Shown here: one piece after another, positions 3,062 through 8,186 of the stretch
Position numbering within the stretch: position 1 is the stretch's first letter
Layout of the letters: each line of letters opens with the position of its first letter
NCBI RefSeq assembly: GCF_030818485.1
Contig: NZ_JAUTAJ010000004.1
Span: 718,501 to 782,500 of the forward strand
Length of the DNA: 64,000 nucleotides
Source: Pseudoroseomonas cervicalis
Lineage (GTDB): Bacteria > Pseudomonadota > Alphaproteobacteria > Acetobacterales > Acetobacteraceae
Reading direction: 5' to 3'
Notes under the pieces: model-generated
The model's input: the letters and a program-made list of their open reading frames with translations, nothing else
Database searches by the model: none
Told to the model about the DNA's origin: nothing
Program-made: the position numbers and the translations under genes

Positions 3062-3148
3062 GCGGGCGGGCGGATCGGCGGTAGCCCTGCACCCTGACCT
3101 CGGTCTATCCTGACCGGCCAAGAATGACTTTTGAGGACGCTGAGTGTC

Positions 3149-4528
3149 ATGACGGTGCGCGGGTGGCAGCCCGGAAGCTGGCGCGAAATGCCGATCCGGC
3201 AGGTGCCGGATTATCCGGACCAGGCCAGGTTGAACGCTATGGAATCCCGGCTCGCGAGCTTTCCCCCGCTGGTTTTTGCAGGTGAGGCCCGCAGGCTGCA
3301 GCAGTCCCTGGCCCAGGCCGGGCAGGGGCGGGCCTTCGTGCTGCAGGGCGGCGATTGCGCCGAGAGCTTCGCCGATTTCCAGGCGAACCCGATCCGCGAC
3401 ACCTTCCGGGTGCTGCTGCAGATGGCGGTGGTGCTGACCTTCGGCGGCTCGCTGCCGGTGGTGAAGCTCGGCCGCATGGCCGGGCAGTTCGCCAAGCCGC
3501 GCTCCTCGGACACCGAGACGCAGGATGGCGTCACGCTGCCCTCCTATCGCGGCGACATCATCAACGGCCCCGAATTCACCCCCGAGGCCCGGGTGCCCGA
3601 TCCGGCGCGGATGGAATTCGCCTATATGCAGTCGGCCGGCACGCTGAACCTGCTGCGCGCCTTCGCCACCGGCGGCTATGCCGATCTGCACGAGGTGCAT
3701 CGCTGGAATCTGGGCTTCGTCGCCCGCTCGCCGCTGGTCGACCGCTATCGCGACCTGGCCGCGCGCATCGACGAGACGCTGCGCTTCATGGCCGCCTGCG
3801 GCATGTCGAACGCCCCCCAGGTGCGCGAGACCGAGTTCTACACCAGCCATGAGGCACTGCTGCTTCCCTATGAGGAGGCGCTGACCCGCGTCGATAGCAC
3901 CACCGGCGACTGGTATGCCTGCTCGGCCCATTTCCTGTGGATCGGTGACCGCACCCGCCAGCCGGAGGGCGCGCATGTCGAGTTCCTGCGCGGGGTGAAG
4001 AACCCGCTCGGCCTCAAGGTCGGCCCGACCACCGATCCCGACGAGCTGGTGAAGCTCACAGAGATCCTGAACCCGGAGAACATCCCGGGCCGGCTGACCC
4101 TGATCAGCCGCATGGGGGCCTCCAAGGTGGCCGACAAGCTGCCGCCGCTGCTGCGCGCCGTGAAGCGCGCAGGCCGCGAGGTGGTGTGGATCTGCGACCC
4201 GATGCACGGCAACACCCACACCGCCGGCAGCTACAAGACCCGCTCCTTCGACGCCATCCTGTCCGAGCTGCGCGGCTTCTTCGACACGCACCAGGCGGAG
4301 GGCACCTGGGCCGGCGGCGTGCATGTCGAGATGACGGGCAGCGACGTCACCGAATGCATCGGCGGCGCGCACAAGCTGTCGGAGGCCGATCTCTCCGCCA
4401 ACTACGCCACCTTCTGCGACCCCCGGCTGAATGCCGAGCAGGCGCTGGAGCTGGCCTTCCTGGTCGCCGAGGAGCTGAAGGCGCGGCGGCCCGAGGGGGC
4501 GGTGCTGCCGCTGATCGCCGCGCAATGA
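3149..4528 (+). CDS. aroG: Class II 3-deoxy-7-phosphoheptulonate synthase
   Basis: Catalyses phosphoenolpyruvate plus erythrose-4-phosphate to DAHP, the first step of the shikimate pathway. The 459-residue protein is of the plant/mycobacterial class II type: [48 protein letters not shown] and the PEP/metal-site segment [11 protein letters not shown] are all present. I chose ATG 3149 because the N-terminus of homologues (W-x-P-x-SWR) begins just after it; an in-frame TTG at 3131 is less likely. The last four bases overlap the next gene as ATGA, so the two are probably translationally coupled. tyrA lies nearby on the other strand, giving an aromatic amino-acid neighbourhood. Confidence 0.94.
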
Positions 4529-5853: not shown

Positions 5854-6588
5854 TTATGCTGCTAATTTCACATCGGATGCCAGCAGCGCCCCCGCCCGCG
5901 CCAGCAGCTGCGCCTTCACCTCCGCCACATAGGGGTTGTCCTCGGTGATGGTGCGGAACAGCGCCTCGGAATCCTGTGACACCTGGCCGGTGGCGCGCAT
6001 CAGCAGCTCGAAGCTCGGCGTGGTGTGGGGCAGGTCGGGCATCTCCAGCCCGGAGACCAGACGCGCCACCAGATGCGTCAGCCCCTGCACCCAGGCCATC
6101 TGCCGGTCATGCTCCTCCGGCGTCATGGTCACCAGCTGAAGGCCGAGGCGCCGCAGCATCCGCAGCGCCAGCCGTGCCCGCGCCCCGCCGCCGGGGCAGG
6201 CGACCAGCCGCAGTCCTTCGATCCCGTCGCGCCCGCTTTGCGGCCCGAACAGCGGGTGGGTGCCCAGCAGCTCGACATGCGGCGGCAAAGCCTCCCGCAG
6301 CAGGGCGAGCGGCCGGGTCTTGATCGAGCAGACCTCGACCACCAGCGCGCCGGGGCGCAGATGCGGGGCGATGGCGCGCGCCACCTCGGCCAGGCGCGCC
6401 ACCGGCACGGCCAGGATGACCACGGGTTGGCGGGCGGCCTCGGCCAGGGACGCGCTGCCGGGCTGCGCCGGGTCGTGCCCCAGCACCGGGCCGAGCTTCT
6501 CCAGATGCGGCCGGCAGAAGGCCCCGAAGGCGCCAAGGCCGATCAGCCCCATGCGGGGGGCGGCGGCAGGGAAGGCGGGAAGCGACAT
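5854..6588 (-). CDS. tyrA: Prephenate/arogenate dehydrogenase family protein
   Basis: A 244-residue NAD(P)-dependent dehydrogenase that oxidatively decarboxylates prephenate (or arogenate) toward tyrosine. It shows an N-terminal dinucleotide-binding loop (GLIGLGAFG), VVILAVPV and VVEVCSIKTRPL, then the family's catalytic segment GTHPLFGPQSGRDGIEG and a helical C-terminal part (MAWVQGLTHLVARLV). There is no ACT domain or fused chorismate mutase; the length is short but complete for the compact type. A Rho-independent terminator on the same strand lies 46 nt before the start codon, preceded by a tiny ORF with Tyr-Tyr codons, which suggests attenuation control. Confidence 0.87.
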   Translation of the reverse strand: MSLPAFPAAAPRMGLIGLGAFGAFCRPHLEKLGPVLGHDPAQPGSASLAEAARQPVVILAVPVARLAEVARAIAPHLRPGALVVEVCSIKTRPLALLREALPPHVELLGTHPLFGPQSGRDGIEGLRLVACPGGGARARLALRMLRRLGLQLVTMTPEEHDRQMAWVQGLTHLVARLVSGLEMPDLPHTTPSFELLMRATGQVSQDSEALFRTITEDNPYVAEVKAQLLARAGALLASDVKLAA

Positions 6589-6633
6589 GGTGACCCTCGG
6601 GGCTTACACCGCCGCCGGGAGGGCCATTCCAAC

Positions 6634-6657
6634 AAAAATGCCGCCCCAGGGCGGCAT
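6634..6657 (-). terminator. Intrinsic terminator in the tyrA leader (attenuator candidate)
   Basis: Read on the minus strand, ATGCCGCC-CTGG-GGCGGCAT is followed by TTTTTGTT. It sits between the leader ORF stop (6690) and tyrA (6588). It could also be the terminator of the upstream peptidase gene, but a terminator this close to a biosynthetic gene, after a Tyr-Tyr ORF, fits an attenuator. Confidence 0.75.
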
Positions 6658-6689
6658 CGTTCGAACAGACAGGCTTCGACCGCGCCGCG

Positions 6690-6740
6690 TTATGTCGAGC
6701 GGCGGTAATACAGGCGCGGGGCGGGCGCGGTCGTCTTCAT
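6690..6740 (-). CDS. Candidate Tyr leader peptide, 16 residues
   Basis: The minus-strand ORF encodes MKTTAPAPRLYYRRST followed by TAA. Two adjacent tyrosine codons (TAT TAC) sit immediately before CGCCGC (segment 1), which can pair with GCGGCG just after the stop codon (segment 2). Segment 2 can alternatively pair with GCCGC in the 5' arm of the downstream terminator. This is the standard layout of a ribosome-mediated attenuator, here in front of tyrA. There is no Shine-Dalgarno; a promoter places +1 at or next to the ATG, so the peptide may be read from a leaderless RNA, as for trpL of Sinorhizobium. An in-frame ATG at 6749 is the alternative start. The function is inferred from layout only. 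Confidence 0.55.
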   Translation of the reverse strand: MKTTAPAPRLYYRRST

Positions 6741-6747
6741 CGCCGCC

Positions 6748-6777
6748 ATGATGGGCGCGGCGAAACGCCCGCGTCAA
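6748..6777 (-). promoter_or_regulatory. Promoter candidate for the Tyr leader and tyrA
   Basis: On the minus strand TTGACG (6777-6772) and CATCAT (6753-6748) are separated by 18 bp. The -35 box overlaps the stop codon of the peptidase gene. The expected +1 is at 6741-6740, the first base of the leader ATG. Confidence 0.45.
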
Positions 6778-8186
6778 GCCATGACGGGGCGCTTCCAGGG
6801 CGCGTAACGCGACGCCTCCTCCTGCCCCAGGCGGGAGAGCAGCAGCGGCCAGGCGCGCAGCCCGTCCTCCAGCGAGGAGAGGCGGAAGAACTCGTTCGGC
6901 GCGTGCACATCCTCATCCGGCATGGCGAAGCCGAACATCAGCGTGTCGATGCCCAGCTCCTCCTGGAAGATGCCGGTGATCGGCAGCGTGCCGCCGATGC
7001 GGGCACGGGCCGGGGCGCGGCCCATCGTCTCCCGCACCACCGCCTCCGCCGCGACCAGCAGCGGGTGGCCCTCCGCCAAAGTGGAGGCGGGGGAGCCGCC
7101 GCCGGGCGGGCTGACCTCCAGCACCACGCCCGCCGGGACGCGGGCCTGCAGATGCTCGACGATGCGGGCCCGGGCGCGGTCCGGATCCTGCCCCGGCACC
7201 AGCCGGGCGGTGATCTTGGCCTGGGCGATGGCGGGGATCACGGTCTTGCTGCCGGCACCGGTATAGCCGCCCCACATCCCGTTGACGTCGATGGTGGGCC
7301 GCAGCGTCAGCCGCTCCCGCACCGAATAGGCCGGGTCGCCATGCGGCAGGGCGCCGGCGCTGGCATAGAACTCGGCCTCGTCGGCGGCGAGCTCCGCCGC
7401 ATCGGCGCGGTCGCGGTTGGTGAGCGGCGTGGCGTCGCTGTCGAAGCCCTCCACCTGCACGCGCCCCTGCTCGTCATGCAGCGAGGTCACCAGCCGCGCC
7501 AGCTCGTGCAGCGCGTTGCGCACGGCGCCGCCATAGCGGCCGGAATGCATGTCCTTGGCGGCGGAGCGCAGCGTCACCTCCAGCTTGCACAACCCGCGCG
7601 CGCCGGTGTTCAGCGTCGGGATGGTGGTGCTGGCCCGCCCGCCATCGGCCGAGAGCACGGCATCCGCCGCCAGCAGGGCGCGGTACTTGGCCAGCAGCGG
7701 GCGCAGGCTGGGGCTGCCGGTCTCCTCCTCGCCCTCCAGGAAGAACTTGATGTTCACCGGGCAGCCGCCCGGCGACGCCAGGAAAGCGCCCACGGTCTCC
7801 ACCGCGATCAGGGTCGAGCCCTTCACATCGGAGGCGCCGCGCGCATAGAGCCGGCCATCGCGGATGCTGGGCTCGAAGGGCGGGGTCACCCATTGCTCCA
7901 GCGGGTCGGGCGGCTGCACGTCGTAATGGCCATAGACCAGGATGGTGGGCCTGCCCGGCGCGCCCAGCCATTCGCCATAGACCGCCGGCTGGCCGCCGCC
8001 CTCCAGCAGTTGCACCTGCTGCAGCCCGAGTTCCTCCAGCCGCCGCAGCAGGAAGTCCCGCGTCGCCCGCATGCCCTCGGCATAGGCCGGGTCGGTGCTG
8101 ACGCTGGGCAGGCGCAGCAGGGCCATCAGCCGCTCCAGGATGGCATCCTTCTGCGACAGCAGCTGTTCGGCAACGGCCTGGCTCAT
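6774..8186 (-). CDS. M20 family metallopeptidase (dipeptidase)
   Basis: A 470-residue zinc peptidase of the M20/M25/M40 clan, cytoplasmic (no signal peptide), of the carnosinase-like dipeptidase type. Metal and catalytic motifs are in order: VYGHYDVQPPDP (His, Asp), GASDVKGS (bridging Asp), FLEGEEETGSPS (catalytic Glu pair) and SADGG. The dimerisation domain (GARGLCKLEVTLRS to RLVPGQDP) is complete and a C-terminal His lies in DEDVHAPNE. It hydrolyses small peptides; the exact substrate is unknown. The gene is divergent from the hydroxyacid dehydrogenase gene at 8318. Confidence 0.9.
   Translation of the reverse strand: MSQAVAEQLLSQKDAILERLMALLRLPSVSTDPAYAEGMRATRDFLLRRLEELGLQQVQLLEGGGQPAVYGEWLGAPGRPTILVYGHYDVQPPDPLEQWVTPPFEPSIRDGRLYARGASDVKGSTLIAVETVGAFLASPGGCPVNIKFFLEGEEETGSPSLRPLLAKYRALLAADAVLSADGGRASTTIPTLNTGARGLCKLEVTLRSAAKDMHSGRYGGAVRNALHELARLVTSLHDEQGRVQVEGFDSDATPLTNRDRADAAELAADEAEFYASAGALPHGDPAYSVRERLTLRPTIDVNGMWGGYTGAGSKTVIPAIAQAKITARLVPGQDPDRARARIVEHLQARVPAGVVLEVSPPGGGSPASTLAEGHPLLVAAEAVVRETMGRAPARARIGGTLPITGIFQEELGIDTLMFGFAMPDEDVHAPNEFFRLSSLEDGLRAWPLLLSRLGQEEASRYAPWKRPVMA

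Follow-up and report, generated by a model that had tools for sequence, protein, structure and literature searches.

A probable leaderless tyrosine attenuator in front of a second prephenate dehydrogenase gene in Pseudoroseomonas cervicalis and related alphaproteobacteria

In a stretch of 64,000 nucleotides from Pseudoroseomonas cervicalis (hereafter, the window), the prephenate dehydrogenase gene tyrA-2 is very probably controlled by a tyrosine-specific transcription attenuator that is ribosome-mediated and leaderless, as judged from the DNA of the window and of its relatives. A first-pass annotation of the window had proposed a ribosome-mediated attenuator at this position, and this interpretation gains support from the conservation of a Tyr-Tyr (YY) pair in the leader peptide, from the lack of a Shine-Dalgarno word ahead of the leader ORF and from the predicted alternative pairings of the leader RNA.

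The gene downstream of the leader

The tyrA-2 gene (5854..6588, minus strand, ATG at 6588) encodes a prephenate dehydrogenase of 244 aa, in which PDH_N and the beginning of PDH_C can be recognised. The protein reaches the cut-off of none of the 16 NCBIfam models that were listed, and its best match among solved structures is a chain of 5t9f named prephenate dehydrogenase 1, which we take to be a plant enzyme. The host genome has another TyrA of 295 aa, which passes NF005694 (413 bits vs. a cut-off of 409 bits) and whose gene, located elsewhere in the genome, adjoins reading frames that by eye are hisC-like and chorismate-mutase-like. The gene of the window is a second tyrA, a point that the first-pass annotation had missed. 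A second, weaker match was found in 10 of the 12 family genomes having a strong tyrA-2 match. The other tyrA was considered as a second target and dropped, as a short ORF of the leaderless type was found at none of its 19 loci (18 in relatives and one in the window's genome). We also noticed a class II DAHP synthase gene near tyrA-2 (3131-4528, plus strand); a scan in front of it found no aromatic-rich short ORF.

Organisation of the leader region

The leader lies between an M20 peptidase gene upstream (8186-6774) and tyrA-2 downstream (6588-5854), both on the minus strand, as are all the elements given below. The promoter TTGACG-N18-CATCAT and the 16-codon ORF claimed in the first pass could be read on this strand as described. 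The -35 element TTGACG (6772..6777) overlaps the stop codon of the M20 peptidase gene, the weak -10 element CATCAT (6748..6753) follows after a spacer of 18, and the ORF MKTTAPAPRLYYRRST, with 16 codons plus stop, occupies 6690..6740, its ATG being at 6740 and its TAA at 6692-6690. The putative regulatory Tyr-Tyr pair, TAT TAC, forms codons 11-12 (6705..6710). A simple scan of positions 6000-7500 on both strands gave a single promoter-like site, the leader promoter (0.0 on average in shuffles, sd 0.2), and a single terminator-like site, the 3:4 hairpin described below (0.3 on average in shuffles, sd 0.6).

An ORF of 10-24 codons starting with ATG or GTG 35-37 nt after TTGAC was present at 2 of the 29 TTGAC sites of the window, namely the leader and one ORF without Tyr. 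The YY pair occurs in 2 of the 256 ATG-started ORFs of 10-24 aa of the window, both on the minus strand, and we take them to be the two nested starts of the leader ORF. A second in-frame ATG is located 9 nt upstream of the leader ATG (MAAMKTT...), where it overlaps the -10 element. The inner ATG was favoured as the leader start because of the promoter spacing in relatives.

The 1:2, 2:3, 3:4 layout of the earlier annotation could be traced segment by segment. Segment 1 (6699..6733) consists of a distal arm near 6733-6722, which is the arm that pairs in the predicted fold, and/or of CGCCGC (6704-6699), which stands directly 3' of the Tyr codons. Segment 2, CGCGGCGCGGTCG (6677..6689), is immediately 3' of the leader stop, contains GCGGCG (6688-6683) and has segment 1 or segment 3 as its possible partner; segment 3, GCCGCC (6650..6655), is common to the antiterminator and the terminator. 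In the antiterminator hairpin 2:3 (6651..6688), which is suggested by the fold and by the comparison of own with swapped arms, an outer helix is predicted between GCGGC of segment 2 and GCCGC of segment 3, and an inner helix between TCGAA and TTCGA. The Rho-independent terminator claimed 46 nt before tyrA was recovered at that distance from the tyrA-2 ATG as hairpin 3:4, GATGCCGCCCTGGGGCGGCATT with its T-rich tail (6631..6658, stem 6658-6637). Further downstream, segment 5, CCCTC (6619..6623), can pair, according to the fold and the swap test, with segment 6, GAGGG (6594..6598), which is the Shine-Dalgarno sequence of tyrA-2, in what we propose as a second layer of control.

In the mechanism suggested by this arrangement, the A of the leader ATG would be the first base transcribed, and translation of the 16-codon leader by a ribosome would set in at once. 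With Tyr-tRNA plentiful, the ribosome would get to the stop codon and cover segment 2, allowing 3:4 to fold; with no ribosome on the leader, 1:2 would form and 3:4 would fold as well. Upon folding of 3:4, RNA polymerase would terminate about 46 nt before tyrA-2. With Tyr-tRNA scarce, the ribosome would stall at codons 11-12 and mask segment 1, segment 2 would pair with segment 3 to give the antiterminator, and tyrA-2 would be transcribed.

Conservation of the leader ORF and its Tyr codons

Orthologues of tyrA-2 were found in all 17 genomes of the genus and, at E<=1e-30, in 43 of the 397 family genomes sampled, the two samples together giving 46 distinct family loci. The carriers include Pseudoroseomonas cervicalis, P. 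aestuarii, P. coralli, P. rhizosphaerae and P. deserti. For leaders and tyrA genes with more than one possible start in frame, the start was chosen by us; the leader count was repeated without choice, by searching the 400 nt before each tyrA-2 match for TTGAC with a start codon 35-38 nt on and an ORF of 9-35 codons. In this choice-free scan, any ORF at the promoter spacing was found at 43 of the 46 family loci and a YY leader ORF at 40. Tyr-His takes the place of YY in leaders L006 and L061, a single Tyr is left in L060, and the scan returned no leader ORF at L056, where the leader frame is shifted, or at L007 and L063. Among the 40 YY leaders the pair is spelled TATTAC in 34, TATTAT in 4 and TACTAC in 2; it falls at codon 11 in 33, and the distance from the second Tyr to the stop is four codons in 38. 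Outside YY, the peptide varies by clade (RLYYRRS, RWYYRPL, SRYYRPRH, GLYYAPH), and in L004 and L057 the leader ORF extends over segment 2, reaching 25-26 codons.

Beyond the family, tyrA-2 was present in 10 genomes of a 385-genome sample of the class. A YY leader with promoter spacing precedes it at 4 of these 10 loci (L079, L080, L081 and L082), and none was found within the 1500 nt searched at the other 6. In L081, the hairpin core known from the distant family members is present, with TTTTTT directly behind it. A lack of conservation of the Tyr codons in orthologous leaders had been named in the first pass as an observation that would refute the attenuator; the pair proved to be kept at 40/46 family loci, with synonymous variation, and at 4/10 loci of other families. 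Among the points counting against the attenuator are the absence of the YY leader from the remaining 6/46 and 6/10 loci, the extension of the ORF over segment 2 in L004 and L057, the weak -10 element of the window and the presence of only two Tyr codons in the leader.

Alternatively, the 3:4 hairpin could simply serve to terminate the M20 peptidase gene upstream, with the small ORF a product of chance; the window promoter overlaps the stop codon of that gene, and the hairpin starts 116 nt downstream on the same strand. However, among the 14 of 46 loci at which the upstream neighbour was resolved, M20 is on the same strand in 8, M20 is divergent in 3 and another gene is divergent in 3, and leader and hairpin are present at all six divergent loci (L004, L056, L057, L005, L055 and L058, the frame being shifted in L056). 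Because of these six loci we rejected the upstream gene's terminator, and a chance ORF is at odds with YY being kept through synonymous codon change, so that we regard this explanation as highly improbable. As a separate observation, a short tandem repeat was seen by eye in L034, where it lies towards the 3' end of the gene upstream and at most 330 nt before the tyrA-2 match.

The start of the leader

In all 44 leaders, TTGAC stands 35-38 nt before the leader start codon, and a 4-mer Shine-Dalgarno word precedes the leader in none of the 44; such a word was found before the tyrA-2 start in 34 of 44. A C stands directly before the leader start codon in 37 of the 44. A spacing of 35-38 nt is that expected if transcription begins at the A of the AUG, as in rnTrpL of S. 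meliloti, for which a transcription start at the A of the leader AUG is reported in PMC7298713. We thus infer, in line with the first-pass annotation, that the leader is leaderless, with +1 on the A of its ATG or adjacent to it.

A leaderless, terminated RNA of about 107 nt with a conserved peptide would resemble the trans-acting rnTrpL, as described in PMC7298713. The element could thus mainly yield a trans-acting small RNA and/or peptide, similar to rnTrpL/peTrpL, with attenuation being secondary. Outside YY, however, the peptide differs between clades, and the constant feature of the element is its place before tyrA-2; we therefore find a mainly trans-acting element unlikely, while a trans-acting RNA or peptide may have an added role next to attenuation.

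Alternative pairings and the terminator

A ribosome positioned on the Tyr codons was simulated by masking the first 40-46 nt of the leader. Under these conditions, a 2:3 antiterminator, mutually exclusive with the terminator, was predicted in 44 of 44 leaders with a best-pair P of 0.67-1.00, by a permissive measure in which at least one pair is counted; L007 and L063, where the leader is absent, are in no fold count. To this we added a swap test, in which the own arms were compared with arms exchanged across species in 42 of the 44 leaders, omitting L056 (frame-shifted) and L073 (leader same as that of L072).

The full 2:3 arms paired better in the own than in the swapped combination in the pooled 23 close leaders (p=0.0014), and so did the inner helix (p=0.0004 in the 23 close leaders, p=0.0002 in all 42), although the swap test ignores relatedness and pooled p values consequently reflect clades in part. 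For the full arms, the comparison gave p=0.15 in group g1b, 0.07 in g4+g98, 0.43 in the 12 distant leaders and 0.58 in g42, and for the inner helix p=0.09 in the 19 distant leaders. Hairpin 3:4 gave p=0.004 in the pooled close leaders and 0.16 and 1.0 in distant groups, and hairpin 1:2 p=0.0002 in the pooled 23 close leaders, being not significant elsewhere. The antiterminator arms thus pair better within species clearly in the close group, but not in the distant group.

The 10 nt that follow the 3:4 stem contain 5 T or more at 21 of 24 close loci, and at only 1 of 20 distant loci. This distant variant, without a U-tract after 3:4, was unexpected and had no counterpart in the earlier annotation. 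With fewer than 5 T of 10, 19 of the 20 distant loci are unlikely to use intrinsic termination of the ordinary kind, and a different mechanism may operate in the relatives that lack a U-tract.

Possible control of translation

The lack of a T-rich tail in 19 of 20 distant relatives would fit a control acting wholly on tyrA-2 translation, by sequestration of its Shine-Dalgarno sequence, with 3:4 as part of a switch and not a terminator. Hairpin 5:6 is predicted to be able to cover the tyrA-2 Shine-Dalgarno sequence, and segment 4 to be able to pair with segment 5; both pairings were better in the own than in the swapped combination, with p=0.0002 in 23 close and 0.02 in 12 distant leaders for 4:5, and p=0.0002 and 0.0024, respectively, for 5:6. 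The distance from the leader start to the chosen tyrA-2 start is also kept, at 136-164 nt in 44 of 44. On the other hand, the T-rich tail is present in the window and at 21/24 close loci, and clade g42 shows no gain of own over swapped arms (4:5 p=0.34, 5:6 p=0.13); group g4+g98 gave p=0.29 for 4:5 and p=0.23 for 5:6. Moreover, the antiterminated state brings no consistent rise in the predicted exposure of the Shine-Dalgarno sequence: the exposure is higher in 12 of 24 close loci (mean 0.26 to 0.28) and in 16 of 20 distant ones (mean 0.37 to 0.42), mostly by slight rises. Control by translation only is in our opinion improbable, and, since a consistent rise in exposure was not found, a translation-control layer added to the attenuator is kept as a possibility that the predicted pairings only suggest.

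If such a layer exists, attenuation and translation control could be combined in a two-stage RNA domino, which we put forward tentatively and consider somewhat doubtful. Stalling at the Tyr codons and the resulting 2:3 pairing would leave segment 4, made up of the loop and the 3' arm of the terminator, free for pairing with segment 5, and the 4:5 pairing would release the tyrA-2 Shine-Dalgarno sequence from hairpin 5:6. Close relatives would then use both termination and translation control. The distant ones, having lost the U-tract, would retain a leader peptide that senses an amino acid and acts solely on the initiation of translation.

Relation to known systems

A known riboswitch or RNA family was considered and rejected, as none of the families of Rfam 15, T-box included, had a match at gathering score in the window; the best match below the threshold was RF00624 P9 (21.9 bits vs. 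43). The classical pheA/pheST, his and thr leader-peptide attenuators share with the window leader the 1:2, 2:3, 3:4 layout with control codons; they serve other amino acids and, unlike the window leader, have an ordinary ribosome binding site before the leader. The primary paper on AroR of C. glutamicum, the nearest system to ours with a Tyr codon, is that of Neshat et al. 2014.

As described in PMC11802643, AroR precedes the aroF operon, and has in common with the window leader a leader peptide with a Tyr codon, an aromatic-pathway gene and stalling that raises transcription. However, its codons are Phe-Tyr-Phe and its gene encodes DAHP synthase, whereas the window leader has only Tyr-Tyr and precedes tyrA-2. 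The same text reports that AroR is induced by Phe limitation with no response to Tyr, which counts against the Tyr-specific reading of our leader. The trpL/trpE(G) system of S. meliloti (rnTrpL, peTrpL), another alphaproteobacterium, is similar in having an ORF at the RNA 5' end, tandem codons for the product and an antiterminator/terminator switch (PMC7298713); it differs by its consecutive Trp codons before trpE, the leader of the window having no Trp and placing Tyr codons before tyrA-2. The uORFC-8-2 motif before cysS in Rhodobacterales (PMC8632094) is likewise an attenuator of alphaproteobacteria that was found by computation and whose short ORF has two tandem codons (Cys-Cys) towards its end, but concerns cysteine, an aminoacyl-tRNA synthetase gene and a different order from that of the window's host.

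The first-pass annotation knew of no established Tyr version, and among the matches listed in our literature search, judged by titles and abstracts with subscription literature mostly outside coverage, none was a Tyr-specific leader-peptide attenuator. In a 2005 paper (PMC1262725), His, Thr and Phe are assigned to attenuators and tyrosine to T-boxes; the words 'tyrosine' and 'tyrA' do not occur in the main text of an attenuation survey (PMC2965389), and the accessible part of PMC13410324 mentions Tyr codons only for the action of a plant alkaloid. The proposed mechanism is classical, and the Tyr specificity and the leaderless Tyr form appear to be new. If confirmed, the attenuator would extend the range of known leader-peptide attenuators by a sensor specific for tyrosine and explain the control of a second, short TyrA in Roseomonas-like and some other alphaproteobacteria. 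It would also be another leaderless leader besides trpL, one where loading of the ribosome on a bare 5' AUG has to be fast enough for a race with RNA polymerase, and the related leaders with and without a U-tract would offer a direct test of how control by termination might give way to control by translation.

Other leaders with aromatic codons

The RNA models R1 and R2 contain few base pairs (6 and 14) and work mostly as sequence profiles. R1 gave 26 matches, and inspection was confined to those with a locus, which 14 of the 26 lacked; the R1 match L092 is coding sequence. Five family genomes carry a leader ORF with the core RFWYR(W/R)Y (L091 in G120, L093 in G004, L094 in G094, L095 in G069 and L097 in G014), in which Phe, Trp and Tyr codons occur together, with no Shine-Dalgarno by eye and with a GCCGCC...GGCGGC hairpin and a T-rich tail downstream. 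In L093 and L094, the gene downstream is a class II DAHP synthase. These leaders are possibly an all-aromatic attenuator, comparable to AroR. A 14-base word taken from them gave only background in the window's genome. Finally, in one genus of another family (L106, L107 and L108), leaders with Trp-Tyr-Phe codons were seen before an ORF for a GNAT acetyltransferase (Pfam assignment for L107), with TTGACA and a TATA-type -10 (TATACA, TATAGA and TATAAG) just 5' of the ATG and with a terminator-like hairpin.
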